Below, piece by piece: positions 2,381 through 31,105 of a stretch of 39,343 nucleotides of DNA (its first letter is position 1; each line of letters begins with the position of its first letter). Source of the DNA: an uncultured Clostridia bacterium (GTDB taxonomy: Bacteria; Bacillota; Clostridia; Christensenellales; Borkfalkiaceae); NCBI GenBank assembly GCA_947629345.1, contig CANRDK010000003.1:1-39343 (forward strand), written 5' to 3'. The notes beneath the pieces are model-generated. The model did not search any database, had not been told where the DNA came from, and saw only the letters and a program-made list of their open reading frames with translations. The position numbers and the translations under genes are program-made.

Positions 2381-3808
2381 TTAAGCCTGAAACTTCATAG
2401 CCTGCAGTTCTTCAGCGGTCTTGTCCTTTGCATCGTCCGTCACCAACGGAAGCCAGCATCCGAACTCGGTCACCCACAACGCGCTGTTATCGATCTTTTC
2501 ATAAGTGATCGACACGTCGGAGGGCGTGAGCATGGCGATCTTGTCGAGGTGGACTTCAGCTCCTCCGTTATACTGGTAGAATTCGATGGTGTTTTCGCCC
2601 TCCTCGAGATGGATGCACCCCATCGTATTCCAGACGAAACTGCACTTACTGTCATCCGAGTCGGGTTGGGCAAGCACGCTCTTCGTGGCAAATTCTTCCC
2701 CGTTGACATAGAGCGTTGCCCTTTCGGTGAATTTGCCGCGTTTGCCGCAATGGAGCTTGAGCGTCACGTCGCACGCCTTGCTCACGTTGAATGTGAATTT
2801 CACATTGCCGTAGCTGGGGTGCACACAGCCGCGCCCATCGTTGACATAATTGAGAACAGAGGGGGTACCTCCCTGCGGGTCAGAGAGTTCGGCGTCCTCT
2901 GCCTCGATCTCAATGGTCTTTGCGTTCTCGATATGATCGCCGCAGAACTTATGGTCCTCTTCGCTCGAATGGACGCAATAGGTCTTGATGCACCCGCCGC
3001 AGATCTCGCAGATGATGCACTCGCCGTCGTAATTATCCCATTTCCCGTTGAAACCGCAAACCGTGCAGGTAAAGTTGTCGTCAAACGTGTGCTCCGCCAT
3101 ATTCTTTTTCCGCGGGAGATTTTCGTTCAATCCCTTATCGCAGGAACGGTAGTCCTGTACCTTGTTGCGGGAGCAGACAAGCTTCTGCCAGTGATGGGTC
3201 GCAGACGTTTGGTATTTATAGGTATCCTCGTGCGGTTTGTAATGGCAGACAGAACAGGTGCCGTCGGGGCCGTTCGTGTCATGGTCCGCAATGTCGATCT
3301 TCTCCGTCGTGTGCTCGCAGGACGCCATATGGAAATGCTGTGTGGTGCTGACGCCCCAGTAGTCCGTCCTGTAGGTGTGCTTGTGCTGGGTCTCCGGCTT
3401 ATATCCGCACACGGAGCATGCCCCGTCCGCACCTTTCTGATCGTGCGCAGCCACGTCCTTCTTTTCCGTATCATGCACACAGGTCGCCGCGTGCCAGTGA
3501 TTCGTTTCGTCGTAGGTCCACGTTTCGGCAAAGGTATGCTCGTGCTGGGTCACAGGCTTGTATCCGCAGACGGAACATGCGCCGTCCGCACCCTTCTGAT
3601 CGTGCGCGGCCACGTCCTTCTTTTCCGTATCATGCCCGCAGGTCGCCGCATGCCAGTGATTCGTTTCGTCGTGGCTCCACGCTTCGGCAAAGGTGTGCTC
3701 GTGCTCGGAAGGACCCGTTCCCTCCTGCCCGCAAGCAGCAAAGGCAAGGCTACAGAGCCCCATTGCAACGGCCAGCAATACGCTGAACAGTTTAGTTACT
3801 TTCTTCAT
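2381..3808 (-). CDS. Lipoprotein with tandem His/Cys-rich repeats and a C-terminal CBM6/35-like domain (475 aa)
   Basis: Lipobox LAFAACG; repeats HTFAEAW..DETNHWHAATC.H..KKDVAAHDQKGADGACSVCGYKP; IEIEAEDAEL...NTIEFYQYNGGAEVHLDKIAML CBM-like signature. Confidence 0.8.
   Translation of the reverse strand: MKKVTKLFSVLLAVAMGLCSLAFAACGQEGTGPSEHEHTFAEAWSHDETNHWHAATCGHDTEKKDVAAHDQKGADGACSVCGYKPVTQHEHTFAETWTYDETNHWHAATCVHDTEKKDVAAHDQKGADGACSVCGYKPETQHKHTYRTDYWGVSTTQHFHMASCEHTTEKIDIADHDTNGPDGTCSVCHYKPHEDTYKYQTSATHHWQKLVCSRNKVQDYRSCDKGLNENLPRKKNMAEHTFDDNFTCTVCGFNGKWDNYDGECIICEICGGCIKTYCVHSSEEDHKFCGDHIENAKTIEIEAEDAELSDPQGGTPSVLNYVNDGRGCVHPSYGNVKFTFNVSKACDVTLKLHCGKRGKFTERATLYVNGEEFATKSVLAQPDSDDSKCSFVWNTMGCIHLEEGENTIEFYQYNGGAEVHLDKIAMLTPSDVSITYEKIDNSALWVTEFGCWLPLVTDDAKDKTAEELQAMKFQA
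3224..3703 (-). repeat. Intragenic tandem repeats (~52 aa / ~156 nt units, three clear copies plus a degenerate fourth beyond)
   Basis: CACGTCCTTCTTTTCCGTATCATG...GCCAGTGATTCGTTTCGTCG recurs near 3450 and 3610; a diverged copy lies near 3290. Confidence 0.85.
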
Positions 3809-3823
3809 GATGTTACCTCCATA

Positions 3824-6800
3824 TCATTTTTTGATTTTGCTTTTTTTGTCACGGACCCACACGACCCACGAGGTGGCCGTCATGATCAGGCAGACCCCTG
3901 TGAGCGTCGCGAATACCGCGATCATTGCCGTAATTGCAGTTTCCCACGCGGGAGTGATATCGATGAAGCTGGTGTCGGTAGAAACACCGTTCATCATCAA
4001 AGAATTGAGCTGGGTGTAGAGGATCCTGTGCGCGGATTCCCGCACCGAATTGCACACTGTGGCATTCTTTGCCTCGTAATAGGGTTTGAGCGCCCCCACC
4101 GCAAAGTTGCCCATCCATGCATCCTGTCCCGCGAGATTCGCAAAGGCGTGCACACTGGACTCGCCGCCCATATAAGCGTTGGTGCCGCAGGCGTCGGTGA
4201 TCGTGATCCCTGTGAAGCCCCACTCGTCGCGGCAGACCTTGTTGAGCAGGCTGTCATTTGCGCCCGCCCACACGGGACCGATGCTGTTGAACGAAGTCAT
4301 GAGCCCGTTGCACCAGCCGTCGACGATGGAAGTCTCAAAGGCCTTCAGATAGATCTCGCGGAGAGCCTGCTCATTTGACCAAGTGTGCACAGCTACGCCG
4401 CGATTGGTATCCTGATCATTGAGGGCGAAGTGCTTCGTGAAGAGGATCACGCCCATGCTGCGCATACCCTTGCTCTCGTAAGAACTGATCGTCCCCGCCA
4501 AAAATCCGTCCTCGCTGTAATACTCATTGACCCGTCCGCCATAGGCGCTGCGGTGAGTGTTGCAACCGACGCCGTAGATCCCCGCAATATTGCAGGTGAA
4601 CATTTCGGTGCCGAACACAACGCCGAGTTCCTCAATGAGCTCCTTGTTGAAGGTGCATGCGAGGATGGGCTCGCTGGGAAGCGCAAATCTACTGCTGCGA
4701 TTGCCGTTGGGACCGTCCTGTTGGGTAATGCCAGGCGCCGCAATGCTCGTGAGACCCGCGCTCGCACAGGAGCGCATCAGCGTTTCCTGTTCGTCAAAGG
4801 AGAGCTGGTTCAGAAGATCATCCCAGAGCGGATGGTCGTAGGGAAGACCGCGCAGCTGGATGAGCATCAGCTTTCCGTACTCGGAAGTCACCGTTTCATA
4901 GAGCGGCATCGTGTCTTCGGAATTGTTCGGGATCTCCTTTTCGTACTTCGACATGCTCGCATTCCACGCGCCCTTCAGGGCAAGGCTCACGCCGTTCGGA
5001 TAAGTCCCCGCCCAATCATTCCGCGAGAGGTAGGTGACGGTCTGGTCCATCTCTTCGTTGCAATTGACGTCCGCATAGTCAAAGCGGTTCACGATCTTCG
5101 TGCCGTTCTTGCTGACGGAATAGGTGGTGTAATCGTTGTTTCTGTAATTGATCTTATAGGCAAGCGCGGAGTTTCCGTCTGCGTCCATGCCGTCCGCCGT
5201 GGTCTTCCCCTTTGCGGCGAGAATGTTATTGACCGCATTGTGGGAATCCTGCCCGACCGCAAGATAGTAATCGCCTTTTTCGAGGATATATGTCCCCTGT
5301 CCGTATGCGTCGTAACTCTTAAACTCATACTCGGGGATCGTGCTCGTGACGGTCACGGTGCTGCCGGGCTCTATCTCAGGCGTCTTTTCGAAACCGACAA
5401 GTTCCACGGCAGACTTTTCGATTTTGTTTGCGATATCGTAGTCGGTGTACGGCTTCTGCAGATAGAACTGGACGGCGTCCTTGCCCGCACGGGAGCCCGT
5501 GTTGGTCACGTCCACGCTCACAATGTAATCGGAATCGGACTTGGTCACTTTGTAATTCGAATAGGAGAAACTTGTGTAACCTGCGCCGTATCCGAAGGGA
5601 TAGGCAACTTCCGCGCCGTAGCTCCATGCGCCGCCCGTGCTCATCTGGGAGCCCGTGGGGTCGCTCGCGTTGCCGCGGCCCAAGACGACGTCTTCATAGC
5701 GGGTCTCAAAATAACGGTAGCCGACATAGATCCCCTCTTGATAGACAACGTACTTGTTCAAAGTGGCAGGCGCTTCGTTCGGCATGCTCGTGTAAGTGAA
5801 ATCGCCGAAGTTGCGGTTTGCGGGCGCGGAGAATGCGTCGTAAAGCCATGTGTCCGTGGTGTGGCCGGAGGGCTCTGCGTTTCCGACAAGAACGTCCGCA
5901 AGCGCCTCGACGCCCATGCTGCCGCCCCAGTTGACCCAGAGGCAAGCGTCAACGTCATATTCATCCACCCATTTCAGGTTCATGGGAGTCGGGACGTTGA
6001 TGGCAAGAATGACTTTTTTGAGCGTGCCCTTGTCTTTGAGCTCTTTGAGGCTCCCGAGCAGACTGCGTTCATTCTTCGTGAGGGAGAGACGGGAACCGTC
6101 CTCCGCCGCCGGATAATAGGTATTTATGTCGCCGCCTTCACCGTAATAGCGGGAGAAGATGACGAGCGCCGCGTCGCCGTATTCTGCGATCGCATTTTTT
6201 GCGGCGGTGGAATAGTTGGAATAGGGCATCTCGTTTGTGCCTGCGAGCGTCACACCATAGCCGCGCTTGCCCGCATTCTCGATGGAAGTGAGGCAATCGG
6301 GATTGAGCTGGAATCCGACGTTCTCGGCAGTCAGCGCGCGCACGACGTCGATCAGATAGGCGTTTTCGTCGAGTTCGACTTGGCCGCTGCCGATCCCGTG
6401 ATAGACGTAATTTTTCGTCGCCACGCCGAAATTGGAGATCTTGGCGCCCTTTTTCAACGGGAGAGCTTTGCTGCCATCCGAACAGTCTTTATTCCAGAGA
6501 AGCACCATGCCCTCTTCGCAGACTTGCCGTGCGATCGCCTCGCTGTGGGCACGCATCGTTTCTTGGTTGATCTTCTGGTTGCGTATGCCTTTTCTGTCAT
6601 TGATCAAGTAGTTTCCGTTTTCATCCTTCATCGAGTACTCGGAGGTGAAATATTGGAAATCGTTGGGATTCTCAGTCTCCACTGCCACGGGAACGGTCCT
6701 CGTCACGCCGAAGAACTGATCGACAAACGTGTAGTACTGCTGTGCGATCGGATCGATGATGAGAAAGATGCTCATCAAAAGTGCAAAAAAGATGGTGAGC

Positions 6801-6850
6801 AGGGTCCACGCGGAACGCTTGAAGATGCGGCTTTTCATTGTCTCTTTCAT
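3824..6850 (-). CDS. GH3-family beta-glucosidase-like protein, domain-inverted (circularly permuted), TM helix at both ends (1008 aa)
   Basis: Order: N-TM, GH3 alpha/beta-sandwich (GMVLLWNKD..), Fn3-like (YPFGYGAGYTSFSYSNY...), then TIM-barrel motifs (TKHFALNDQDTNR; GFTGITITDACG), C-TM ITAMIAVFATLTGVCLIMTATSWVVWV; SD AGGAGGAGG. Confidence 0.85.
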   Translation of the reverse strand: MKETMKSRIFKRSAWTLLTIFFALLMSIFLIIDPIAQQYYTFVDQFFGVTRTVPVAVETENPNDFQYFTSEYSMKDENGNYLINDRKGIRNQKINQETMRAHSEAIARQVCEEGMVLLWNKDCSDGSKALPLKKGAKISNFGVATKNYVYHGIGSGQVELDENAYLIDVVRALTAENVGFQLNPDCLTSIENAGKRGYGVTLAGTNEMPYSNYSTAAKNAIAEYGDAALVIFSRYYGEGGDINTYYPAAEDGSRLSLTKNERSLLGSLKELKDKGTLKKVILAINVPTPMNLKWVDEYDVDACLWVNWGGSMGVEALADVLVGNAEPSGHTTDTWLYDAFSAPANRNFGDFTYTSMPNEAPATLNKYVVYQEGIYVGYRYFETRYEDVVLGRGNASDPTGSQMSTGGAWSYGAEVAYPFGYGAGYTSFSYSNYKVTKSDSDYIVSVDVTNTGSRAGKDAVQFYLQKPYTDYDIANKIEKSAVELVGFEKTPEIEPGSTVTVTSTIPEYEFKSYDAYGQGTYILEKGDYYLAVGQDSHNAVNNILAAKGKTTADGMDADGNSALAYKINYRNNDYTTYSVSKNGTKIVNRFDYADVNCNEEMDQTVTYLSRNDWAGTYPNGVSLALKGAWNASMSKYEKEIPNNSEDTMPLYETVTSEYGKLMLIQLRGLPYDHPLWDDLLNQLSFDEQETLMRSCASAGLTSIAAPGITQQDGPNGNRSSRFALPSEPILACTFNKELIEELGVVFGTEMFTCNIAGIYGVGCNTHRSAYGGRVNEYYSEDGFLAGTISSYESKGMRSMGVILFTKHFALNDQDTNRGVAVHTWSNEQALREIYLKAFETSIVDGWCNGLMTSFNSIGPVWAGANDSLLNKVCRDEWGFTGITITDACGTNAYMGGESSVHAFANLAGQDAWMGNFAVGALKPYYEAKNATVCNSVRESAHRILYTQLNSLMMNGVSTDTSFIDITPAWETAITAMIAVFATLTGVCLIMTATSWVVWVRDKKSKIKK

Positions 6851-7107
6851 TCGGACACCTCCTCCTTATCGAGTTTTCCCGTTTCCCTGAGCACATATAG
6901 GACGACAGATCCCACAAAACCCAAGAAAAACAAAATGTCGAATACGAACATTACCACTTGATACCATTCCCCAAAGAAGGACGCGACCTCGTTGGTCTGG
7001 GCCGCAATGCCATTCAGGAGGATATACACGGCGATCACGCCGACCGTCAGAAAAAAGACGAACATCGCGCACACGCCCATGATGATACCCCAAGGAATTT
7101 TCTTCAT
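6847..7107 (-). CDS. Small membrane protein (86 aa), translationally coupled to the downstream GH3 gene
   Basis: MKKIPWGIIMGVCAMFVFFLTVGVIAVYIL..., two predicted TM helices; 4-nt ATGA overlap with the GH3 start at 6850. The track start at 7122 contains the SD (AAGGAG) for the ATG at 7107, so 7107 is preferred. Confidence 0.75.
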   Translation of the reverse strand: MKKIPWGIIMGVCAMFVFFLTVGVIAVYILLNGIAAQTNEVASFFGEWYQVVMFVFDILFFLGFVGSVVLYVLRETGKLDKEEVSE

Positions 7108-7270
7108 GATTATCTCCTTCATACAGAATTTTCATAGCGCCTGCGCTACGCGTTTGGCAAGCGCTTCGGGAGGCGACTGCGCATTCGCCGTTCCCGAACC
7201 CGACAGGCAGAAGGAACGTCCGCGCCAAGCGCATGCGGTCCGTCTGCGAAGCCATCTTATTGGTGATTTG

Positions 7271-7299
7271 ATTATAGCAAAAAAAATTTTTTTGTTTCA
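7271..7299 (-). promoter_or_regulatory. Candidate promoter of the leftward GH3 operon (perfect -10, poor -35)
   Basis: Minus strand TATAAT (7276-7271); 17-bp spacer is essentially A8T7; -35 position is TGAAAC. Confidence 0.5.
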
Positions 7300-7315
7300 T
7301 AAACAGCCTAAAATC

Positions 7316-7347
7316 GAAAAAAATAATCCTATTCTGTCAAATAGGAT
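7316..7347 (-). terminator. Intrinsic terminator after the two-component system genes
   Basis: ATCCTATT (7326-7333) / AATAGGAT (7340-7347) hairpin followed on the minus strand by TATTTTTTTCG. Confidence 0.65.
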
Positions 7348-7410
7348 CATTTTTACGAGAAAAAAATTGCCGATTCGATCATTTTTGATAACTTTTGATA
7401 AAAACAGCGC

Positions 7411-8754
7411 TCATTTACCTGCAGCTTGGTTCGCGGGAAGCAACACGTTCAATACAAACTTGTTGTCGGCGACGGACACCGAACACACGCCGCCGTATTT
7501 TTCGGCAACATTCCGCATGGAACGGATCCCGAATCCGTGAAAATCCCGACTTCCCTTGCTGGTAACGGGGTAGCCCTCTCCATCGAGCCCGATCGTCCCC
7601 TCGTAGGGGTTCGTCACGTTGACGGATACCATCTCCCCCACCTTGTGCACGACAATTGAAATGTTGCGTTTCTTTTCGTCGAGCTGCATGACGGCGTCCA
7701 TCGCATTTTCCAAAGCGTTTCCGAAGAGCGAGTAGATATCCGCCGTATCCATAAAGTCAAGCGCATGTCCGTCCACAACGCAGGTGAGAGAAACACCGTC
7801 GCGGTGGCATTTGAGGCTCTTTTCCGTCAAAATCGTGTCGAGCACTTCGTTTTCGGTGCGCACTTCCGCATCATAGATAGAAATAGCCCGCTCGATCTCC
7901 CTCACGGCGTCGTCCGTCAGAGCATTCTTTGCACTGATCGACCGAATCTGATGTCTGAGATCGTGGCATTTCAGATTGATGAGTTCGATATTGTCCTTGG
8001 AGAGCTTGTATTGCCGCTCCTTTTCGCGCAAGAGATACTGCGTGATATCAAGTTCATTCCTTAGAGTTCCCGTCTTGATGAGATTGAACTGGATATACAA
8101 CAGAAAACTGCAGCAGAGCGTCTCGTAGACCGTGTTCATGATCGTATCGAAGATACTGCGGTCCTCGCTATAATAGATGATGACGGAGTTCAGAAGAATG
8201 TCCACAATGAGTGCAACGCCCACGAGAATAAGGATGCCCGTGCGCTGGACGCGGAACTCCTCATCGGGTTTGATCTTGCGGATATACAGATAATAGAATA
8301 TCGTATAAGAAGAAAAGTATGCGAGAATGTAGAGAAACACAATGAGCAGAGTGCTCAGGTCCATCTTCGAAAAGTCGAAAGTGCCCTCGAAATACATGCC
8401 GAAAATGGGGCTGTTCCCCCTCTGCACGATCATCATCAGCAGATTGGAGATGCTATATGCAAGATGCTGCATGGTATACGCCACAATTCCGCAAAAGATC
8501 ACGTTCGTCCAGCTCTCTTTGCAGCAAAACTTCATCATGGGCACGGTGACCGCAAACAGCACGAAGAATGTGAACGTCGTATAAAAGGCGTCGTAAATGG
8601 GCGGCAAGATGAGGGCAAGCCCCTCCGCCACGACAAAACAAGCGCAGAAACGGAGCGCAAAATAGCTCCGTCTGCGGAGCCGCATTTCAAACAAAAATTC
8701 TACGACGAAAAGCTCCAGAACAACGAGCATTCGGTAGAAAAGGAGCATTTGCAC
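7411..8754 (-). CDS. Sensor histidine kinase, GHKL/AgrC-like, polytopic N-terminus (447 aa)
   Basis: Multi-TM N-terminal half; H-box-like NLKCHDLRHQIRSI; ATPase motifs LFGNALENAMDAV and GFGIRSMRNVAEKYGG. Confidence 0.88.
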   Translation of the reverse strand: MQMLLFYRMLVVLELFVVEFLFEMRLRRRSYFALRFCACFVVAEGLALILPPIYDAFYTTFTFFVLFAVTVPMMKFCCKESWTNVIFCGIVAYTMQHLAYSISNLLMMIVQRGNSPIFGMYFEGTFDFSKMDLSTLLIVFLYILAYFSSYTIFYYLYIRKIKPDEEFRVQRTGILILVGVALIVDILLNSVIIYYSEDRSIFDTIMNTVYETLCCSFLLYIQFNLIKTGTLRNELDITQYLLREKERQYKLSKDNIELINLKCHDLRHQIRSISAKNALTDDAVREIERAISIYDAEVRTENEVLDTILTEKSLKCHRDGVSLTCVVDGHALDFMDTADIYSLFGNALENAMDAVMQLDEKKRNISIVVHKVGEMVSVNVTNPYEGTIGLDGEGYPVTSKGSRDFHGFGIRSMRNVAEKYGGVCSVSVADNKFVLNVLLPANQAAGK

Positions 8755-8756
8755 GG

Positions 8757-9473
8757 CTATTTTCCCCCGAGAAACTCGTTAAGGCTCATCAGAAAGCTCT
8801 TCTTTTTGTTGCGTGAGATCTGGAGCGATTCGCCCGCCACGGTGACGGACATTGCTTCAATGGCGGTGACATGTTTCAGATTGACGAGAAAACAGCGGTT
8901 GCAGAGCGCAAACGGCGCGTCCTCCAGTTCCTTACAGACATTATAGAGTTGGTCGTAGGTCGTAAAATTTCCCTCAAAGGTGTGATAGATGCAACAGTGG
9001 TGCGCGACCTCGACATATTTGATATCCCGCACCCGAAGCCGCCGTTTGTTGTTGCGTTCGGTGATCCATATCTCTTTGCTCTGCGTGCTCTTGTATTTGT
9101 TGATCGCGCGGTCCATTTTCATCGCAAAGCTCTCGTACCAAACGGGCTTGACGATAAAATCGAGCGCATTTACCTCATATCCCTTTACGGCATACTGCGC
9201 CATATTGGTCACAAACACGACGATAACATTTTCATCTTTCTCGCGGATATGCCGCACCGCCTCCATCCCATTCATGTGCGGGAGCTCAATATCCATGAAA
9301 ATGAAATCGTAATTTCCGCTGAATTCGTCGAGAAAGGTGATCGCATCCGAAAAACAAGTTACATTAAAGGTATATTTCAAATCACAGTGATCTTGCTCAT
9401 ATTCTTTCATGAGCGCACATAGCTGCTCGCATGTTTCCCGATTGTCCTCTACAATGCATATTCTGAAATTCAT
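8757..9473 (-). CDS. LytTR-family response regulator (238 aa)
   Basis: Receiver CIVEDNRETCEQL..YDFIFMDIELPHMNGMEAVRHIR..VFVTN..VNALDFIVKP; LytTR domain IKYVEVAHHCCIYHT...LCNRCFLVNLKHVTAI; 2-nt gap to the kinase gene. Confidence 0.92.
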   Translation of the reverse strand: MNFRICIVEDNRETCEQLCALMKEYEQDHCDLKYTFNVTCFSDAITFLDEFSGNYDFIFMDIELPHMNGMEAVRHIREKDENVIVVFVTNMAQYAVKGYEVNALDFIVKPVWYESFAMKMDRAINKYKSTQSKEIWITERNNKRRLRVRDIKYVEVAHHCCIYHTFEGNFTTYDQLYNVCKELEDAPFALCNRCFLVNLKHVTAIEAMSVTVAGESLQISRNKKKSFLMSLNEFLGGK

Positions 9474-9503
9474 TTCTCCCCTTTGCTCCTATCCATCACT
9501 TTA

Positions 9504-9532
9504 ACAGTAACACACATTCGGGGAAATGTCAA
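9504..9532 (-). promoter_or_regulatory. Predicted promoter for the TCS operon
   Basis: Minus strand TTGACA (9532-9527), 17-bp spacer, TACTGT (9509-9504). Confidence 0.5.
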
Positions 9533-9630
9533 GATTAAATTTAGTGAAAATTCTGTAAAACCGAAACGGAGGCGGCCACAAAAATGGTATGCTTTTCCAA
9601 TCGGTTCACAGCGCTTTTTCGGGCGCCGTA

Positions 9631-9660
9631 TTGACTTCCGTCTAATAAGCATGGTATAAT
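9631..9660 (+). promoter_or_regulatory. Predicted promoter for the rightward GH3 gene
   Basis: TTGACT (9631-9636), 18-bp spacer, TATAAT (9655-9660); 31 bp upstream of the ATG. Confidence 0.75.
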
Positions 9661-9691
9661 AAGCTACAGATCCCCAAAAAAAGGAGGAAAT

Positions 9692-12600
9692 ATGAAACCC
9701 AAAAAAAACTTGATCCTGCGGATCGCAAGCATTGCAACGACGGCGGCCGTCGGCTGCGGTCTGATCGTAGGGAACTACTACGCGTTTGAAAACGAGAGCA
9801 ACCTCAATCAGATCCTCTGCCCGCCCGTTGTGAATGAGAAGACGCTGGAAAAGACACAGCAACAGGCGCAGGAGATGTCCAAACAGATCGTCTCCGAGGG
9901 CTCCGTTCTTCTCAAAAACAATGACGGGGCACTGCCCCTCGACGTTGTTGAGGACAGCAGGGTCAATATCTTCGGCTGGGCAAGCATCGACTGGGCCTAC
10001 GGCGCGAACAGCAGCTCCTGTTCGGGACGGGTGATGACGGAGGACGGTTCCGACGCCTCCCTCATCGACCTCTATGACGCGCTGACGGAGTACGAAATCG
10101 AGTACAATCCCGACCTCGAGGCGATGTACCGCCGCTATTCCGCCCCCTATCTGTACGCGATGAAAGCTCCGAACAATGTCAACAACGACAACGTGATCAC
10201 CCTGCACGAGCCGAATATCGACGACAAGAACTATTACACGGATGAATTGCTCAGCCGAGCGCTTTCCTATTCGCAGACGGCGCTCGTTGTGATCACCCGC
10301 AACGCAGGCGAGGACATTCCCGCAGACAGGCCGATGAGAAAGGCAGGCAGCGGCGCAACGACGGAGAGCGACAAGATCTATCTCGACGTCTCGGCCGAAG
10401 AGCTGGCCCTGCTCGAATATGTGGGTGCGGCCTACGAAAAGGTGGTGGTCATCATCAACTGCCCCGTGGCGATGGATCTCGGCTTCCTCGACACCATCCC
10501 CGGGCTCGACGCCGCACTGCAGGTCGGCTTTACGGGAACGCACGGCGCCGCCGCCATTCCCAAACTGCTCTACGGAGAGGTCTCCCCCTCAGGCCGCCTC
10601 GTCGATACATACGCATACGACAGGAACACCTCCTTTGCCATGAAGACCAAGAGCGGAGCGCAGTGGTCGAGCGGCGGAAACGGCAAATACTTCTTTGAAT
10701 ACCTCGAAAATATCTACGTCGGCTACCGTTGGTACGAAACGGCGGATGCGGAGAACTATTGGGATGAATACACGCGCGAACTGCTCGACGAGACGGATGC
10801 GTTTTCGGATGTGTTCGGATATGACGCCGTTGTACAGTATCCCTTCGGCTACGGCCTCTCCTACACCGAATTCACTTGGGACGTTCTGAGCTATGAGCTC
10901 ACGATAGACGGCAAACCCACAAACGAGCTCACGCCCGAATGCGAGATCGTCTTTAAGGTCAACGTGACCAATGTCGGCGACTATGCAGGCAAGGATGTTG
11001 TAGAAGTCTTCCTGAATGCCCCCTACTACGACGGGGAGATCGAGAAGGCCTATGTCAGCCTCGTCGGGTACGAAAAGACCATCTTGCTCCAACCGGGTGA
11101 AAACCAGATTTTGGAGGTCAGGGTCGATGCGGACGACTGTTTGAGCTACGACTGTTACGACCGCAACGACGACGGCCACAGCGGATACGAACTCGACCGC
11201 GGCACCTACCGCTTCCAGCTGATGAAGAACTCCCACGAGATCAAGACTGCCAACTTCCCGAATGACAATCTCAAAAACGTGGACGCAGTCGTTGCATATG
11301 AAGTGGAGGAAACAATTCCCGTAGATGAGGACAAATATACGGGTGCGACGGTGGAAAATCTCTTTACGGGCAGCGACGCCGTGGACGGATACCCCATCGA
11401 CGCCGTGGAGAACGGATACTCCCCCGCCTATCTCGAACGCGACTCCTTCGCCGATATCCAGACCTTTGAAGGGCTCAAATCGCGTCCCGCAAGTTCCCTC
11501 CTCAATGCAACTTACAGCTTCACGCAGGAAAAGTGCAATGAATGGGACAATGCCAAAGTCGATGTCTTTGGCGAGCCGACCTTCCAAGGGACGGTGGAAT
11601 GGGGCGCACAGAACGGTCTCAAGGTGTATGAGGCGAATGAGGTGACAGAGCTCGGCTATGACCTCGGCGCCGACTACGACGATCCCATGTGGGAGGACGT
11701 CCTCGCGCAGGTCACGGTCAGCGAATGCCTGAACGTCATCAATAAGTCGTACGGAACGCCTGCGATCCCCTCCGTCGGCAAGCCGAGCTGCCCCGAACTC
11801 GACGGTCCCGCGCAGATCAAGTGCTACTATCAGGATGCGCCCCGCGGCACGGGGTACCCCTCCGCCGTCGTCATTGCGCAGACATGGAACAAGGAGCTTG
11901 CGGAGGACTTCGGCCTCTCCTTTGCCCAAGATATGGCTTCGGTCGGCATCAACGGGCTGTGGGGCTGGGGGACAAACATCCACCGCACGCCCGTCGGCGG
12001 CAGAAACTGGGAATACTATTCCGAAGATCCCTTCATCTCGGGCAGCGTGCTCGCAAACGCGGTGAAAGGACTCAACAAGGGCGGAAGGTACTGCTATATC
12101 AAGCACTTCTGCCTCAACGAATCGGAGAGCAACAAGGTGGAAGGGTTCACGTTTACCACCGAACAGGCCCTCCGCGAGATCTATCTCAAGCCCTTCCGCA
12201 TGGCCATTGAACAGGGCGGCGCACTCGGCATCATGACCTCCTTCAACCGCATCGGTGCGGTGTACAGCGGCGGCAGTCAGGCTGCCATTGCGGGCGTCGT
12301 GCGCGGCGAATGGGGCTTCCGCGGCAGCATCATCACCGACTGGGCCAACACGGGCGGCTACATGTCCATCGACCATCAGCTCCGTGCGGGCGGCGACCTC
12401 GGCATGAATACCAACCTCAACGCGGGCGTCAGAGCAGAGTACAGCGAAAAGGGAACTCCCCGTCTGCAGTATCAGATGAAGGAAGCCGTCCACCACGTTC
12501 TCTATACATGGCTCCGCAGTCAATATCTCAACAAGGAATACAACGAAAACCCCGAAACGACGGAGCAGGTCATTCAGACGGCGTCCATCGAATCGTGGAA

Positions 12601-12715
12601 ATGGTGGAAGACACTGCTCATCGACGTAGACGTCGCACTCAGCGGCCTGTGTGTGCTTTGGGTGGTCATGTCCTTCCTGCCCGACAAAAAATCAGAACAA
12701 AAGGAGGAGCTCTGA
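9692..12715 (+). CDS. GH3-family beta-glucosidase-like protein, domain-inverted (circularly permuted), TM helix at both ends (1007 aa)
   Basis: N-TM LILRIASIATTAAVGCGLIVGNYY; EGSVLLKNNDGALPL; YPFGYGLSYTEFTW; then barrel motifs YIKHFCLNESESN and GFRGSIITDWANTGG; C-TM TLLIDVDVALSGLCVLWVVMSFL; SD AAGGAGG. Confidence 0.87.
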   Translation: MKPKKNLILRIASIATTAAVGCGLIVGNYYAFENESNLNQILCPPVVNEKTLEKTQQQAQEMSKQIVSEGSVLLKNNDGALPLDVVEDSRVNIFGWASIDWAYGANSSSCSGRVMTEDGSDASLIDLYDALTEYEIEYNPDLEAMYRRYSAPYLYAMKAPNNVNNDNVITLHEPNIDDKNYYTDELLSRALSYSQTALVVITRNAGEDIPADRPMRKAGSGATTESDKIYLDVSAEELALLEYVGAAYEKVVVIINCPVAMDLGFLDTIPGLDAALQVGFTGTHGAAAIPKLLYGEVSPSGRLVDTYAYDRNTSFAMKTKSGAQWSSGGNGKYFFEYLENIYVGYRWYETADAENYWDEYTRELLDETDAFSDVFGYDAVVQYPFGYGLSYTEFTWDVLSYELTIDGKPTNELTPECEIVFKVNVTNVGDYAGKDVVEVFLNAPYYDGEIEKAYVSLVGYEKTILLQPGENQILEVRVDADDCLSYDCYDRNDDGHSGYELDRGTYRFQLMKNSHEIKTANFPNDNLKNVDAVVAYEVEETIPVDEDKYTGATVENLFTGSDAVDGYPIDAVENGYSPAYLERDSFADIQTFEGLKSRPASSLLNATYSFTQEKCNEWDNAKVDVFGEPTFQGTVEWGAQNGLKVYEANEVTELGYDLGADYDDPMWEDVLAQVTVSECLNVINKSYGTPAIPSVGKPSCPELDGPAQIKCYYQDAPRGTGYPSAVVIAQTWNKELAEDFGLSFAQDMASVGINGLWGWGTNIHRTPVGGRNWEYYSEDPFISGSVLANAVKGLNKGGRYCYIKHFCLNESESNKVEGFTFTTEQALREIYLKPFRMAIEQGGALGIMTSFNRIGAVYSGGSQAAIAGVVRGEWGFRGSIITDWANTGGYMSIDHQLRAGGDLGMNTNLNAGVRAEYSEKGTPRLQYQMKEAVHHVLYTWLRSQYLNKEYNENPETTEQVIQTASIESWKWWKTLLIDVDVALSGLCVLWVVMSFLPDKKSEQKEEL

Positions 12716-12716
12716 T

Positions 12717-12875
12717 ATGAGTAAATTGAAAAAAATCGTCCTCTTTGCGGGACTCGGTGCGATCGCCCTCGCGGTCATTCTCATCACTTCCATCTCCTAT
12801 ATCAAATATCAGATCTACAGAAGCCAATTCAAAGATACCGACCCCGAAGCGCAGGTTGTATTCATGCTTGAATAG
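12717..12875 (+). CDS. 52-aa single-TM protein immediately after the GH3 gene
   Basis: MSKLKKIVLFAGLGAIALAVILITSISYIKYQIYRSQFKDTDPEAQVVFMLE; SD AAGGAGGAG inside the GH3 3' end; ATG 1 nt after the GH3 stop. The track start at 12651 is too early. Confidence 0.72.
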   Translation: MSKLKKIVLFAGLGAIALAVILITSISYIKYQIYRSQFKDTDPEAQVVFMLE

Positions 12876-12895
12876 TTCTCATTCCGTCCCCTTTC

Positions 12896-12935
12896 GCTCC
12901 CTCCGCACAGCTCTTGCGGGGGGAGCTTGTTTTTT
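12896..12935 (+). terminator. Intrinsic terminator
   Basis: GCTCCCTCCGCA / TGCGGGGGGAGC stem (one G-U) followed by TTGTTTTTT. Confidence 0.8.
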
Positions 12936-13002
12936 ATGCCGACGGGGAATGATCGAATTTTAAAAGTGCACACTTTTTTGAACTCTTTCTCAATCGGGGT
13001 AA

Positions 13003-13030
13003 TTGACACTCCCTATCATTATTATATAAT
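13003..13030 (+). promoter_or_regulatory. Perfect-consensus sigma-A promoter
   Basis: TTGACA (13003-13008), 16-bp spacer, TATAAT (13025-13030). Confidence 0.8.
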
Positions 13031-13096
13031 AAAATTACTAATATTCTTATACAGGCGCCGCCTCGCGCAGGTATCAAGATCAAAAGGAGAAAAATT

Positions 13097-15466
13097 ATGA
13101 GGAAAACAGGCAGAAATGTTGTTTCCGTGCTCACGGGGCTCCTGCTCATCGTCACGATGCTGTTCGCGTGTATCGCGTGCGGCTCGAGCGGTAAGGAGAT
13201 CAAGAGCATTGAAATAACCACTCCCCCCACCAAGACCGACTATATCAAGGGCGAAAAATTCGATCCCGCGGGCATGGTCATCAGTTTGATCTACAAGGAA
13301 GAGGGCGCAGAGAAGGAAGTTCTCCCGTCAGACGCCTATCAAATTTCCCCCGACGCATCCACACCTCTTGATACCAACAACAGAACGGTCACCGTGACCT
13401 ACGAAAAGGACGGCAAGAAATACACCGCCAAGCAGGTCATCACGGTACACAACAATGCAACGGCCGTAACGATCAAGAGCCGGCCGACAAAGACGGAATA
13501 CATGGCAGGCGAAAGATTCGATCCCACGGGTATGGTCGTCAATGCCACGTTTGAGGACGGCACCACCGCAGAAGTTGAGATCACCTCCTCGAACGCACAG
13601 TACAAGACCGATCCTCTGAGCGATGCAGATTCCGAATTCGTCATCAAGTACAGCGGCTTCGAAATCAAATTGCAGCTCACCATTGCGACGGGTGTTTTCA
13701 TCGAGGCAGAAAACGCCAACATCAACGCAAAATCTTATCAGACCAATACCGACTCGGAGAAGGCTTCAGGCGGCGCTTACATCGGCAATATGTTTGCGGG
13801 CGACAGCATCACGTTCAAATTTATCGCAGAAAGCGCAGGCAAGGCAGATATCGCCTTTATCCTCTCCTCCGTGTATCTGAAAGAGGGCACAGGTGACGGC
13901 GGCTGGACCCCCGTGGAGATGGGCGACTGCCAGTTCAACAAGATCGTTGAATTCACCGTGAACGGCACGAAATACGACATTCCCGACTCGGCCGTGCTCC
14001 CCGGCGGCGTTGCCGCGGACAAAACGGCAGGCGACCAGACCCTTTGGTTCAACTGGAAGGAAGTCACATTCAAAGATGTGGACCTCAAAGCGGGCTCCAA
14101 TGCCATCAAACTTACCTTTATCGAGCACGACTACGTCTCCAGCCAGAGCGGTTGGACGGGTACGTTCGGCGCCAATATCGACTGCCTCCGCGTCAACAGC
14201 AGCGTCAAGTGCTCGCAGCAGACCTATGACATCACCGTGACCGATTCCTATGTGGAAAAGAGCGGCGACAATGTCATGCTCAACATTTCGGGGACTGCGG
14301 TCGGATACGATCAGAGCGACATCTCCGTCACATTCGGCAGCGGCGCGACCCTTCCGCTCTCTGAATACGCGCTCGACGAGTCCAAGGGGACCTTCACGGC
14401 AAAGGTTGCTCTCAGCGGCCTCAGCGCAGGCCAGTACACCAGCATCCTCGTTGTGACGCGCGACACCAGCGTTCCGCTGAAGACGACAAAAGACGGCGGG
14501 GAATTCTCCGACTCTGTCTCCAGCTATACCGTTTCTAAGTCTGAAAGCGGCCTTTTGACCATTGAAGTTGTGGGCGGCTCCATGTACAAGGTCACGAAAG
14601 TCGAACTCAAGGAGATCGACGGCAAGCCTTGCTACGTCATCACAGGCGAAGTTGCGGGATACACAAGCGATCTGTTCTCGCTCGATATGCAGGAAAACAA
14701 CACTTGGGCAGGGAATAATCCCGCATTCACGATGGACATCGATACATCCGCAAAGACCTTTACGGTCGCGGTCGATCTCTCCTCCCTGAAAGCATCCGAA
14801 AACGTCTATATCCCCCACTTCAAACTTGCGATGGAGTCGGGAGAAGGCGCGGGCGACATCAAAGTTGCAAACGGCGTAGAGGCGACGATCGGTCAAAGCA
14901 TCACCGTCGGCAGTATGGTCTATACGCTCGATGATTCGGCGTTCTCATGCGTCTGCGTCAAGATCGTCTCGACGAAGAATTACGAGAACAAGTCGGTCTC
15001 CCTCGAAACCAAGGACAACAAGGCCTACCTCGTCATCAACGGGACCTATTCCCAATATGAAAAGGATGAACTCACAGCCGAGCTCACCAAGTCCATCTAT
15101 GCCGACACGCAGAATATGCCCAAGGTGGACGGAGACGAGAGCAGCGAGTCTTGGGACGACAACACGAAAGTCGTTCTTACGCTCAACGATACCCTTCTTG
15201 TGGAAGTCAACGACGACGGCACCTACAAGATCTATCTCGACCTCTCTGCAGGGCAGAACGGTCAGGCGCTCTTCTCCCATTTCAACTTTAACGGGGCAAC
15301 AAACAGCAATCTTGCAAACCTTCCCCACAAGGAGGGCACGCCCGAATCCATCACCGTCGGCAATCAAAAATACAGCTTTGTAGATATGTCGTCGATGAGC
15401 ACCATGGGTGACGCTTGGAGTTGGGCGACGACGCTCATCGTTGTCAAGGTCGAAGCAGCAAACTGA
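13097..15466 (+). CDS. Large lipoprotein with tandem Big_3-like Ig domains and a CBM6/35-like domain (789 aa)
   Basis: Lipobox LFACIACG; repeats PTKTDYIKGEKFDPAGMVI... / PTKTEYMAGERFDPTGMVV...; IEAENANINAKSYQTNTDSEKASGGAYIGNMFAGDSITF...; SD AAGGAG. Confidence 0.8.
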   Translation: MRKTGRNVVSVLTGLLLIVTMLFACIACGSSGKEIKSIEITTPPTKTDYIKGEKFDPAGMVISLIYKEEGAEKEVLPSDAYQISPDASTPLDTNNRTVTVTYEKDGKKYTAKQVITVHNNATAVTIKSRPTKTEYMAGERFDPTGMVVNATFEDGTTAEVEITSSNAQYKTDPLSDADSEFVIKYSGFEIKLQLTIATGVFIEAENANINAKSYQTNTDSEKASGGAYIGNMFAGDSITFKFIAESAGKADIAFILSSVYLKEGTGDGGWTPVEMGDCQFNKIVEFTVNGTKYDIPDSAVLPGGVAADKTAGDQTLWFNWKEVTFKDVDLKAGSNAIKLTFIEHDYVSSQSGWTGTFGANIDCLRVNSSVKCSQQTYDITVTDSYVEKSGDNVMLNISGTAVGYDQSDISVTFGSGATLPLSEYALDESKGTFTAKVALSGLSAGQYTSILVVTRDTSVPLKTTKDGGEFSDSVSSYTVSKSESGLLTIEVVGGSMYKVTKVELKEIDGKPCYVITGEVAGYTSDLFSLDMQENNTWAGNNPAFTMDIDTSAKTFTVAVDLSSLKASENVYIPHFKLAMESGEGAGDIKVANGVEATIGQSITVGSMVYTLDDSAFSCVCVKIVSTKNYENKSVSLETKDNKAYLVINGTYSQYEKDELTAELTKSIYADTQNMPKVDGDESSESWDDNTKVVLTLNDTLLVEVNDDGTYKIYLDLSAGQNGQALFSHFNFNGATNSNLANLPHKEGTPESITVGNQKYSFVDMSSMSTMGDAWSWATTLIVVKVEAAN

Positions 15467-18132: not shown

Positions 18133-21100
18133 TCAGTCTTTCCTCTTCATGAGGACGAATGCCGCCGCACCGATGAGAGTGACGAGCGCGATCACACCGC
18201 CGCCGATCCCAATGACGGAACCGCAGCCGCCGTCATCTTCCTTGGGCTGATCACAGGGAGTTTCGCCGCCGGGCGTCTCCCCACCGGGGCCTGGGGTATC
18301 TCCGCCGGGGCCGGGGATGTCGGGGTTCGTAGGATGTGCCGCCTGATAGGCCGCGAGGAGCTTCGTATACTTATCCTGCACGAGGAGGCTCCTGTCGTCC
18401 GTTTCGAGGTCGCCGATGGCCGCCTCGAGCGCAAGGATCTCCGCATTCTGCTCCTCCGTGTTGCTGTAGGTATCGGAAAGCGCATCGATGCGGGCTTGAA
18501 TGTCGCGGATGACTTTCTTGGCATACTCGATCTTGAGGCGGACGATCTTCTCGCGCGCGCCCGTCACGGCCGTGCGGAGCTCATTCCACTCATTCATATC
18601 GATGCCGAAAGTCTCGGGTTTCTGCTTGATGGCGTTGAGCGCAATGACTGCCTGCGAGACGAGGGCTTCGTCGTCGAGGGTGAGCGTCGCGATCTCGGCA
18701 ACCTTTCTGCCGTATTCGAGGAAGTTCTTCATGGACTGCTCCATTGCAACGTATTCGCTACGCTGAGCATTCGCAACTGTCCCGAAGTAGACGAGGTAGA
18801 TGACGTTGTCGTAGCCCGAGATATCCGAATTGCTCGGAAGGATCATCTCGATGGGCTGTCTCTTGCCGACAAGATCGACGAAGTTGAAGTAGCACTGCTT
18901 CTCGAACCGATACATGCTGAACTGGTTGCAGAGGATGTTGTACCCGGGATCGGTTTCGGCGAGGCTGGGTGCATTTTCATCGTAGCTGCATTCGAGCGAG
19001 GGAGCATTGACCGAACGGAATTCCACACTCGCAAGGGCAGTGTAGCCATAGAAAGCGTATTCGCCGATGCTCTCGAGGGAATCAGGCAGAACGATCGAGG
19101 TGATTTTCTTGTTCTCGTTCCCCGCATAGGCGGCGATGTACGTCGTCCCCTCTTCCACCGTCAAGGTGGTACCCGTCATGCCTGCGGGAACTGCCGCAAG
19201 CTGCTGTTTGCCGTTTTCGAGATCCAGATAGAGCACGCCGTCCTTGATGTGCGCATGCGCATTCTCTGCGCCGTTCACCATGGTGAATGCCGTAATGGAG
19301 GTGCAGCCGCGGAAGGCCTGTTCACCGACATAGGTGAGTGCACTGCCGAAGCTGAAGCCCGTGAGAGCGGTGTTTCCATAGAATGCCCCATCGCCGATGG
19401 TTGCAAGGGCGGGTGCGTTGAACGCCGTGAACTTTGCGTTGCGGAAAGCATAACTGCCTGCAAACACATAGTCGCCGAGGTCGATGTCATTTTCGTCGAT
19501 AATCTCGGGCATGATGATCGCGATTTCGGGCATGACGATCTCCGCATAGCTGAGGCTGACGATATTTCTGTCGAGAGAGGTCTGAGCAAGCGAAACAAGT
19601 TCGGGGGCATTGACCGTGCCTGTAAGACCTGTGTCCGCAAAGGCGAGGCTTCCGATCGTCTTGGCCTTTGCGAGGTCAACCGTCGTAAGTTTTCCCGCCA
19701 AATAGAATGCTGCGGCGCCGATCTCCGTGACCTTTCCGAGGTTCACCGTCTTTAAGGACGTGCAGTTCATAAAGGCAAAGTTGCCGATCTTGGTGACGTC
19801 TGCAAGCTCCACGGTCTGCAGAGCGGTACAGCAGGCAAACACGTTGTCGGGAAGTTCCGTGATCCCGCCGGGGATCGTCACGCTTGTAAGGCCTGCACAG
19901 CCATAAAACGCGGCCTCGCCGATCTCAGTGACATGGGAAAGGTCGATGGACGTGAAGGTCGGGCCGTGGTTTGCCCTGCCGCCGCGCGTGAAGTAGGTGT
20001 AATCCATGAATGCGCCCGTGCCGATCTCGGTGAGGTCGTTGCCGAGAGTGACGCTTGCAAGGCGGGAGCAATCGGCAAATGCAAGTGTGCCGATCTTCGT
20101 CACATTCGTGAGAGTCGCCGCCGTAAGATTGCTGCAGCCGTAGAAGGCCGCCTCTGCAATCTCGCCCTTGACTTTGGAGAGATCGATGGAATTCAACGCA
20201 GTGTCGCCATAGAACGCATACGAGCCGATCGCAGTGTCGCCGCTGAGCGTGACCGTTGCAAGTTTTGTGCATTCGCGGAAGGCCGCCGAGCCGATCGTGG
20301 CTCCGCCTTGGAAGGTGACGCTCGTAAGCCCGCTCTGGAAGAAGCTCGCATCCCCGAGCGTGACGCCGTCTGCAAAGGTCACTTGCGAGAGGGCCGTATC
20401 GCCGTTGAAAGCCAGATTTCCGACCGTGGAGACCTTTTCGAGGTTGACGGAATTGAGCTTGGTGCAGCCCGCAAAGGCGCCGTTGCCGATCGTGTTGGTT
20501 CCCTCTGCAAAGGTCACAGTGAGGAGCTGTTTACAGTCCGCAAAGGCATATTCGCCGAGCGAAACGGGCCCTGCAAAGGTGACAGAGGTGAGCTTTGCGC
20601 CCGAGAACGCACCCGCACGCACGGACTTGACGCTCGCGGGAACGGTGACGCTGTCCGTGCAGGCATTGACTGCCACGAGGACGATCTCCTCCCCATTCTT
20701 TGTGAGAAGCTGAGTATTGTTCTCGTTGAGTTGATAGTTCGCGTCGGCACCCGTTGCGAGTTCAAACTTGTTGAGACCGCAACCGTTGAAGATGGAGCCC
20801 TGTGCGGAAGAGATCTGCGTATTCGCCTGAACCGCGACCGTTGCAAGGTTCGTACAGCCGTTGAACACCTTCTCGCCGAGCGCAAAGCCGCTGTTGGGAA
20901 GGGTGATCTTGGTGAGGTTGGTGTCGCCCGCAAAGGCATAGTCGCCGATGGAAGCGAGCCCGTTCTCGCTTGCAAACGTGAAGGACGTCAAGCTCTTGTT
21001 GTTCGCAAAGGCGTAGGCGGGAATGACGTTGGTTTCGTAGCAAGTGACATCTTTGAGCCCGCAGCCGTCAAACATATGCGCGGAGAGCTTGGTGAGGCCA

Positions 21101-24100
21101 TTCTCATCAAAGACGACATTTGCAAGCTTGGTGCAGCCCGCAAAGGCAGATTCGCCCGTGTTGCGGAGGTGCGTGAGGTCGAGAGACGTGAGCGAAGTGC
21201 AATTTCTGAAAGCGCGTGTGCCGATCGCATAGCAGGAATTCAGCTTGAGAGGATTCCCATCCGTAGCAACGCCGTCGCCGAAGTCGTTGAGCTTGGTGCA
21301 GCCCTCGAATGCGGACGCGCCGATGACTTCCACGTCCTTGCTCAGATTGATCTTCTGAAGGGAGGTGTCCCCCATAAAGGCGTACTGGCGGATGAACTGG
21401 ATGGTTTCGGGCAGTTCTACCGTCTTGAGCGCCGTACAGTTGTAGAAAGCGGTCTGCTGGATCTCCATGACGCCGTTGGGGATCTTCACAGAGGTGACGG
21501 TATCGTTGCCGAGTGCGATACGGTTGGCGTAGATATCGTCGGAGGGAAGTTTCTGGAGATAGTCCTCGTCGTCCAAATAGAGGCTGAAAGCGAAGGGTCC
21601 GATATAGAGGATGCCCTCGTCGTCGGGAATGACAACGTCCCCGCCGAGGCCCTTGTAGGCAACGAGCGTACGCGCATCGTCGATGACGAATTCGCTGAGG
21701 ACGGTGATACGGAGGGAGGCCATGAGGTTGGAGCCCGCAACGGTCAGCGTGACCGTGGCGTTCCCCTTCTTCAGCGCCTTGATGACGCCGTTGCTGTCAA
21801 CCGTCAGAACTTCGGGACGGTCGCTCTTGAAGGTGAACTGATAGGTATCCTTCACATACCACGGTTCAACATCGTAGAAGAGCTGGATACTCTCGCCGGG
21901 GAACATTTCGATGCCCCCGCGGTAGGCCGTCAAAAAGGTGGTATCGTTGACGTCGCCGATGTCGCTCGGGTCGCCCGCCACCTGCGAATAGGCCTTTAGG
22001 GTCTTGAAGTAGGCAAAGCGCACGTCTGTGATCTTGGCATCCTTATAGTTCCCGACGTCTTGGGCGGCAAGGAGGGAGATCCCGTTGTTGCCCTCAACGG
22101 AGAGAGACTGCGCAGCGCCCTGATCGGTACTCTTATTGACGACCTGAATGTTGATCGTCGTCCTGTTGCTGTAAACGGGGTCGGACACGGTGATCGTGAC
22201 CTTGCCGGCCTTGAGGCCGCGGACCTGACCGTATTGCACGTCCGCAGTGGCCTTATTGGAGGAATTCCAAGAGAGGTGCCTGAGATAATCGGTCACATCC
22301 TCCACCGTGGAGGCCGTTGCATCCGCAGAGTAGAGATACTGCGTGAGATCCAAAACTTCGCCGATCCCCACTGTCTTGCTCGTGAGCGTTTTCCCGTTCG
22401 CAGTGCCGTCCTCGGTGAACTTGAAGTTGCCGCGGGTGCCGGGAAGCTGGCAGATGAACATGTTCTCGTTGAGCGCATAGTCCATCACCGCAAAGACGAG
22501 AGAATTGGGCACCATCGAATCGTATTGGAGATTGGGAAGAAGGTCCGTGATCTCGTAACGGAAGGTGTAGTCCTGTCCCCTCTCGCCGTAGAGCGGGATG
22601 GGATAGTTGTTGACAGAGGTAAACTGGATCTGCGGCTCACCCGAATTGGGGCCCGTGTAGTCGGGATTCGGCGTGAAGATGCCGGGGATGAGCGCCATTG
22701 CATAGGCGTTATCGTAGACGGTGAGGTTGACGTAGTAGCGGTCCTTCTTGAGCGTCTTGTCGTACTTCTTCTCGTAGGTCGCGCTCTTGATGATGGGAGC
22801 CTCCGTATCGAAGGTGAAATCGAACGTGAAGGTGTTCCGCGCGTTGGTGTACTCGCCGCCGTCCTTGCCGTAGTCGAGGAGGCCAACCATCTTGAATTCG
22901 TACTGGCGGTTGTTGATGAGGTTGTAGTCGCTCGATCTGAAATCGAACGTCTCATCGTAACCGGGGATGGGTGAACCGCCCTGCGAATATGCCTTGCGGG
23001 CGTTGTAGTCGTAGTGGTCGAAGATGACTTCCCCCGTCACCTTGTCGGTAATGGTGTAGTGCATCGTCTTGCAGCCGCGGAGGAGCCCCTCGTAGACTGC
23101 GCTGATCCCGTCGAGCGTGTTGAGCGTGTTGGAGATCGCGGCATGCTCCGAAGTTGCGGGGATGGGGTCAAAGCTCGATTCGTCCATCGTATAGAGATAG
23201 GTCCCGAGCGGGATGATATAGTTGTATCTGTAGGAACCGTAGGGCGTGGTGGCGTAGTAATCGGCCTTGATCTTATCTTCCTCGTCGATGCCTGCGTTGT
23301 GGGCCTCCGTTTCCACTTCAAAATAGGTCTTGTCGAACACGGGAGCCTGCGTCCAGTCGCCGTAGAAGGCAAGGAAGGGAACGTTGAGATCGACTTCCCC
23401 CTCTGCCTTGAGGGTGACAAAGCCCTCAACAAACATGCCGTAAGGGAAGGAATTTTCGATGAGGTCCTTATCTGCCTGCGAGAGCGTATAGGTGACCTTG
23501 AGTTTGAGGACGTTGGGGGTGGCCCCTGCGCCCGACTTTCCGTTCACCGTGACGATGTTGCCGCTGACGCTGCCGTTGTTCGCCGAGAGAGCTTCCACCT
23601 TGACGCTACCGTTGAGGAGCTGGGAACGCTCTGCAACGAAGTCGTCGTCTGCCGTGGAGACGCTCTCCGTCATGCCGAGAACGTCAAGCGTGTATTTGAG
23701 AGAATTGGTGGAGGTGTTGACGACGTTGAGGTACATTTCGTACACGCCCGTCTTCTTTGCGTCGTCGCCGAGCTCGAGCTTGGTGCGATCCTGCACCTTG
23801 CCGTCCTTTTCGACCTCGATATATGCCTTTGTGGTGACTGCGTTCTTGAGGCTTGCAAGGCCTGCGCCCTGCTTTCTCGGCGAATACGGATTGCCCTGCT
23901 CGTTGAGAACGATGCCCGCCGTGGACATGAGGAGCTTGTTCGTCAGATTCTTGACGTCCTTCATGTAGGTGGCGTTGGTTTCTGCATCTTCGGTGGGCTT
24001 TTCGTTGCCCGTGAGGTCCTTATAGTTGTCTCTCACATACTGACGGATGAGAAGGACGATGCCGCAGAGGTTGGGGCAGGCCATGGAGGTACCGCTGATG

Positions 24101-27667: not shown

Positions 27668-27675
27668 ATTTGCCG

Positions 27676-28833: not shown

Positions 28834-28836
28834 TGT

Positions 28837-30027: not shown

Positions 30028-30042
30028 TTGAGATCCTGCCTG

Positions 30043-31053: not shown

Positions 31054-31105
31054 GGTTTCACCGATTTAGCGCTTGTTGTTTGTGTATTACCTTATTTATA
31101 ATAGA

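Follow-up and report, generated by a model that had tools for sequence, protein, structure and literature searches.

A LytTR/GHKL two-component system in a conserved gene unit with a permuted membrane GH3 and a small membrane protein: a putative inducible surface glycan-processing module of an uncultured Clostridia bacterium

A 39,343-nucleotide stretch of DNA from an uncultured Clostridia bacterium (contig CANRDK010000003.1, Borkfalkiaceae), referred to here as the window, contains a GHKL histidine kinase and a LytTR response regulator with a gene set on either side. Each set comprises a glycoside hydrolase of family 3 (GH3), a small transmembrane (TM) protein and a lipoprotein, and an initial annotation described the two sets as mirrored cassettes flanking the central two-component system. 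The locus thus raises the question of which of these genes belong with the sensor and what the sensor might serve. Comparison with related genomes indicates that the five genes on the left are a real unit, as judged from their order and conservation, and that GH3R, the GH3 gene on the right, probably lies outside it. The coordinates of all features are collected in Table 1.

The left unit has the order regulator-kinase-2TM-GH3L-LPL and spans 2381-9473, entirely on the minus strand. The presence of a GHKL kinase and a LytTR regulator at the centre is confirmed by the Pfam matches listed in the table. The kinase has short loops only, no extracytoplasmic sensor domain and an HD-type motif, CHDLRHQ (loops and motif read by eye), and the kinases related to it have 5-7 TM helices; its closest relatives are the kinases of other 2TM-containing units. 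Two genomes from another family of the same order, G187 and G254, carry the identical five genes in identical order, with gene calls in the comparison loci made with codon scoring. The bit scores against the window for the regulator, kinase, GH3L and LPL are 379, 581, 1521 and 473 at locus L200 and 394, 595, 1308 and 336 at locus L201, and 2TM is present at both. Additionally, the left unit is found in G002 (L065).

The linkage between two-component systems and GH3 genes that the initial annotation relied on is also found in homologous loci. Within the window's genus (37 genomes), 36 of the 39 full-length LytTR regulators lie within ~10 kb of a GH3 gene on the same contig (counted by hand), which at a generous chance rate of 20% has a probability of ~3e-22 when orthology is not taken into account. 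The three exceptions are one regulator in G001 and two that lie at the ends of contigs in the genome of the window; for one of these two, the orthologous loci show an adjoining GH3. Within the genus, the genomes with permuted GH3s and those with full-length LytTR regulators are the same eleven, plus G001. Outside the genus, a regulator and a kinase are present in 50 of the 80 named permuted-GH3 loci, and in 30 of the 38 that have at least 5 kb on each side; the taxa include Lachnospiraceae, Oscillospiraceae, Bacilli, Coriobacteria and Bifidobacteria. Two-component control of the left unit is well supported by these genomic comparisons. In three further loci (L071, L077 and L080), a LytTR/GHKL pair adjoins a canonical, non-permuted and anchor-free GH3, so that the sensor-GH3 link, as seen in gene neighbourhoods, extends beyond the permuted type.

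A candidate site for this control is located between the kinase and 2TM genes. In this gap of ~300 bp, a LytTR-type direct repeat is the sole strong conserved block among the window, L200 and L201, and it is placed directly ahead of a weak -35 and an extended -10; with its second half written differently, the repeat reads ACAGAATAGG-N11-CGATTTTAGG. The best 44-base match across the operator is 38/44 between the window and L200, versus at most 27 in shuffles. The pattern ACAGAATAGG-N17-TAGGCTG has one exact match in each of three genomes (the window's, G187 and G254), and the same pattern read backwards, as a control, has zero. A 9-12-9 direct-repeat layout just before the -35 has been reported for LytTR regulators (PMC6193735), and candidate direct-repeat operators with a 12-bp gap near the -35 are found in the window and in three ortholog groups. 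An ortholog group of eight loci has the 21-bp-spaced repeat RCARTTTRTG-N11-RCARTTTRNG ahead of the GH3 gene and, in four loci, also ahead of the lipoprotein gene; L035 and L079 have the 21-bp-spaced repeat TTTTRTAAG-N12-TTTTGCAAG ahead of the GH3 operon; and the three loci with a canonical GH3 have a strongly conserved 21-bp repeat, GCAATTTATG-N11-ACAGATTACG, ahead of the GH3 gene. Among spacings of 12-40 in 58 upstream regions, a spacing of 21 gives the top mean self-identity, and 10 regions reach a repeat identity of at least 8/9 at this spacing versus ~2 at other spacings. A scan with a rigid LytTR consensus shows no enrichment because the operators differ among paralogs, for which footprinting worked instead. 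These differing repeat sequences suggest that the paralogous units are insulated, parallel systems.

The small membrane protein 2TM appears to be a genuine component of the unit. Its ORF is a real, conserved gene, with a nonsynonymous rate (dN) of 0.20 and a synonymous rate (dS) of 1.88 between the window and G187 (dN/dS ~0.1). When 297 genomes of the order were searched with a profile, 17 strong matches emerged, and the 2TM gene is directly upstream of a permuted GH3 in 17/17 and directly downstream of a kinase in 16/17. The family is restricted to one GH3 clade, and in two genomes 2TM and GH3 are fused as one protein (G002, L064, 1927 aa; G216, L203, 1628 aa). The proposal that a small TM protein acts as a partner is thus strengthened for 2TM and its GH3 by fixed synteny and two natural fusions. 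In profile-profile comparisons, the first 2TM helix resembles the N-terminal anchor of its own GH3 clade (P 2e-8) and the second resembles the anchor at the C-terminus of other GH3s (P 9e-11), with the controls (reversed sequences and kinase helices) at 3e-4 or worse. An alignment with 2TM-only rows was discarded, as MAFFT divided them between the N-terminus and the C-terminal helix of GH3. The protein looks like the anchor pair of the enzyme minus the enzyme, whether by descent or by packing likeness.

Other small membrane proteins adjoin permuted GH3s elsewhere. A four-helix protein of ~130-150 aa (4TM), with no Pfam or NCBIfam family, is encoded directly behind or before permuted GH3s of other clades as a second small-partner type (L061, L062, L070, L087, L098, L112, L115, L117, L120, L124, L130, L133, L146, L150, L165 and others). 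A GtrA-like protein is found in this position in Streptococcus suis (PF04138) and Fusibacter (by eye), at L116 and L154.

The two GH3 enzymes share the same unusual architecture, as initially annotated. Both are permuted, with the order PF01915 - Fn3-like (PF14310) - PF00933, and have hydrophobic helices at residues 14 and 972 (GH3L) or 8 and 975 (GH3R); a helix at both ends is present in 138 of 158 permuted GH3s. Their best matches among solved structures are rumen GlyA1 (5K6L) and a Paenibacillus enzyme (5WUG), and for the model of a related 2TM-GH3 fusion the first Foldseek match is 5K6M (E 7e-52). The predicted acid/base E238 and nucleophile D886 of GH3L both align with the GlyA1 motifs, in which the counterparts are Glu-143 and Asp-709 (PMC5104943). 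Among the rows of the 158-sequence alignment that have the residue, the nucleophile Asp is kept in 157/157 and the acid/base Glu in 155/157, and by these residues GH3L and GH3R should be active beta-glycosidases. A reading of the GH3 as a dead-enzyme receptor was rejected because the catalytic residues are conserved.

The window's genome (G000, 1.9 Mb; L031-L038 and the window) has 13 permuted membrane-type GH3 genes, which are scattered across the whole GH3 tree and are not a recent amplification. Long GH3s of 1150-1450 aa, with an extension ahead of the C-terminal anchor, occur in L034 (where the extension is of Ig type, by eye), L041, L044, L082 and L086, and a short permuted GH3 together with a lipoprotein often accompanies them.

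Both lipoproteins contain an EAE-type domain, in agreement with the IEAE(D/N)A-type CBM6/35-like domain (carbohydrate-binding module, CBM) originally noted. Pfam gives no call for LPL alone. However, a profile of ten related domains (two from the window and eight from GH3 fusions) matches CBM35-bearing structures, down to 7e-15, and the predicted structure of the LPL domain (pLDDT 77, pTM 0.74) has CBM35/CBM6 folds as its top matches in the PDB. The C-terminal domain of LPL is thus predicted to be a CBM35/6-like beta-sandwich and a putative sugar binder. Related CBM-like domains are fused to GH3 in L064 (four, behind a further helix), L068 and L038 (two each). The natural 2TM-GH3 and GH3-CBM fusions indicate that 2TM, GH3L and LPL work together. 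The Cys/His-rich repeats of LPL are of the type HTFAEAWSHDETNHWHAATC...CSVCGYKP and are perhaps metal-binding; similar repeats are present in the lipoproteins of sister loci.

In light of this evidence, we consider it on balance probable that the left five genes encode an inducible, sensor-controlled surface glycan-processing module. The membrane-embedded kinase would sense a glycan product, a glycan that the surface complex has bound, or the state of the enzyme or of its complex, and would phosphorylate the LytTR regulator. The regulator, we infer, would bind directly to the repeat and activate, rather than repress, the weak 2TM-GH3L-LPL promoter. LPL, as a lipid-anchored binder, would hold the glycan at the cell face, where GH3L, its two termini fixed in the membrane, would cut terminal sugars off it; within the membrane, 2TM would pack against GH3L and might connect the enzyme with the kinase. 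Several observations weigh against this reading. No sugar transporter is encoded among the genes of 2381-15466, and since the left unit lacks one, the released sugars would have to enter through general uptake. Taken alone, the window repeat is imperfect (5/9 identity), and only comparison lends it weight. In the AlphaFold2 model of the fusion protein, 2TM is placed at low confidence (pLDDT ~60). GH3 and kinase distances correlate weakly over all pairs (deep paralogs) and not at all within genomes, which indicates that enzyme and sensor are not strictly co-inherited.

What the kinase reads admits other explanations. The membrane GH3 may itself be part of the sensor, so that a kinase without an ectodomain reads the working enzyme (its substrate occupancy or the sugar that it sets free) via helices in contact with the anchors of GH3 and with 2TM; the permutation of GH3 would then place both ends for anchoring. 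Such a hydrolase-coupled two-component receptor, which would exist in many insulated copies per genome, is possible but unlikely. It is distinctly improbable that the kinase instead senses a secreted peptide, as AgrC and ComD do, with the GH3 operon as a quorum- or competitor-induced output aimed, for example, at wall glycans of a rival or of the cell itself. Peptide signalling is the best-known role of GHKL and LytTR pairs, Agr/Com-type systems share with the left unit both protein families and the 9-12-9 direct repeats before the promoter, and the kinase has no sugar-binding ectodomain. However, peptide sensing is less likely because neither AgrB nor a C39-type peptidase was found in ten cassette-bearing genomes, which extends the earlier remark that no AgrB/AgrD-like gene is visible. 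The conserved unit was found without a gene for a peptide, AgrD or a peptide exporter, its output is a glycosidase and its partners are CBM-type glycan binders. Additionally, eight different pairs in one genome, mostly by different GH3s, fit a range of substrates better than quorum sensing.

A different role for 2TM was also considered, in which it would not serve GH3 as a partner but would inhibit the LytTR regulator from the membrane. The LytTR Regulatory Systems HdrRM and BrsRM resemble the left unit in having a LytTR regulator, a direct-repeat operator and a small membrane protein nearby, with the membrane inhibitors (HdrM/BrsM) encoded beside the regulator (PMC6193735), and the 2TM gene nearly always follows that of the kinase directly. 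Against this, the regulator of the left unit has a receiver domain (PF00072) and its own adjacent kinase, and 2TM belongs to GH3: it occurs in one GH3 clade only, and all of its fusions are to GH3 and none to the regulator. An inhibitory role thus seems quite doubtful. The reading of both halves as one regulon, derived by duplication and inversion around the two-component system, draws on the physical symmetry of the locus, with a permuted GH3, a small TM protein and a CBM lipoprotein on both sides, but this reading is scarcely tenable and its proposed origin is refuted. The deepest split in a tree of 72 GH3s (support 99) separates GH3L, a member of the 2TM clade, from GH3R, which belongs to a clade of mostly solitary GH3s, and the nearest kin of each are found in other genomes. 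In G187 and G254, the left unit is present without a GH3R ortholog in the mirror position.

The right trio itself differs from a mirror image. The gene order outward from the centre is 2TM-GH3-lipoprotein on the left and GH3-TM-lipoprotein on the right, the small protein of one side is unrelated to that of the other (two helices in 86 aa versus one in 52 aa), and LPL, with Cys/His-rich repeats and a CBM, differs in architecture from LPR, with two Big_3 domains and a CBM and a promoter of its own. The 52-aa gene is genuine (dN 0.25, dS 0.74, dN/dS ~0.33, window versus G025), and in G025 a 51-aa ortholog (L040:8184-8339) lies directly behind the GH3R ortholog, which has no adjoining two-component system and no sensor upstream; the LPR homolog of that genome is in a different GH3 cluster (L043:2185-4059, 686 bits). 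No LytTR-type repeat was found upstream of GH3R or LPR, no second copy of the left operator exists within the window, and the region upstream of GH3R is not conserved between the window and G025. These comparisons give no support to the idea that this two-component system controls the right trio, which is probably a GH3 module next door with expression of its own. The proposed glycan-sensing or processing surface system tied to the two-component system is supported for the left half of the locus.

Table 1. Positions and features of the left unit, its control region and the right trio in the window
Feature	Coordinates	Strand	Description
LPL	2381-3808	minus	lipoprotein; Cys/His-rich repeats and C-terminal CBM35/6-like domain (2501-2920)
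GH3L	3824-6850	minus	permuted GH3; TM anchor at N- and C-terminus
2TM	6847-7107	minus	86-aa two-helix membrane protein; overlaps GH3L start
Extended -10 of 2TM-GH3L-LPL operon	7271-7279	minus	TGCTATAAT; from sequence; -35 poor
LytTR-type candidate operator	7304-7337	minus	ACAGAATAGG-N11-CGATTTTAGGCTG; direct repeat with a start-to-start spacing of 21 bp
GHKL histidine kinase	7411-8754	minus	polytopic; PF14501 1e-20
Response regulator	8757-9473	minus	receiver (PF00072 1.3e-16) and LytTR DNA-binding domain (PF04397 7.3e-13); first gene of the unit
Promoter-like site of GH3R	9631-9660	plus	TTGACT ... TATAAT; own promoter, consensus-like
GH3R	9692-12715	plus	permuted, doubly anchored GH3; distant clade
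52-aa protein	12717-12875	plus	single TM helix; just behind GH3R
LPR promoter	13003-13030	plus	own promoter; strong, consensus-like
LPR	13097-15466	plus	lipoprotein; two Big_3 and CBM35/6-like domain (13688-14218)

The neighbourhood of the two gene sets offers several further observations. A tRNA-Arg (CCT) gene at 2108-2182 abuts the end of the left unit and is a possible insertion point. By eye, a 2640-aa protein (18133-26055, minus strand) looks like a subtilisin-like protease that is secreted, contains leucine-rich-type repeats and is anchored at its C-terminus, and its gene is followed by an Opp-like oligopeptide ATP-binding cassette transporter set at 26291-33787, outside both gene sets.

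Parts of this arrangement are already known, namely permuted GH3s (PMC5104943), LytTR regulators near membrane GH3s (PMC2914790) and LytTR operators (PMC6193735). In Butyrivibrio proteoclasticus B316, LytTR regulators lie near secreted GH3s with a C-terminal TM helix, as the regulator of the left unit lies beside a membrane GH3; one sentence in 2010 noted that all three LytTR regulators are so placed and suggested general carbohydrate sensing (PMC2914790), an account without an operator, a small TM partner, permutation, fusion or breadth. The closest solved fold, GlyA1 (PMC5104943, PDB 5K6L-5K6O), has the same domain order, (a/b)6 sandwich - FnIII - (a/b)8 barrel, and the same catalytic Asp and Glu as GH3L. 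Unlike GH3L, which is equipped with two terminal TM anchors and a small membrane partner of its own, it is a soluble construct with another C-terminal domain. The Gram-positive polysaccharide utilisation loci (gpPUL, PMC5320581) likewise cluster a regulator with glycoside hydrolases; the left unit, in contrast, has no transporter, a LytTR/GHKL pair instead of LacI/AraC and a single membrane-anchored exo-enzyme. In the open-access literature searched, no paper on the five-gene unit, the small partners, the fusions or the paralog-specific operators was found, and the small partner, the fusions, the paralog-specific operators and the breadth appear to be new.

Glycan-specific detection by Gram-positive gut bacteria is poorly understood. 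Genomes of 1.3-1.9 Mb contain up to 9 parallel, apparently insulated sensor-enzyme-binder units, and relatives of these units, widespread among gut bacteria, are found in Bacillota and Actinomycetota. If the proposed module is correct, GHKL/LytTR signalling would have a broad role beyond peptide sensing, the anchoring of both ends would be a plausible reason for the permutation of GH3, and a function would be assigned to 2TM and 4TM, both new families of small membrane partner.

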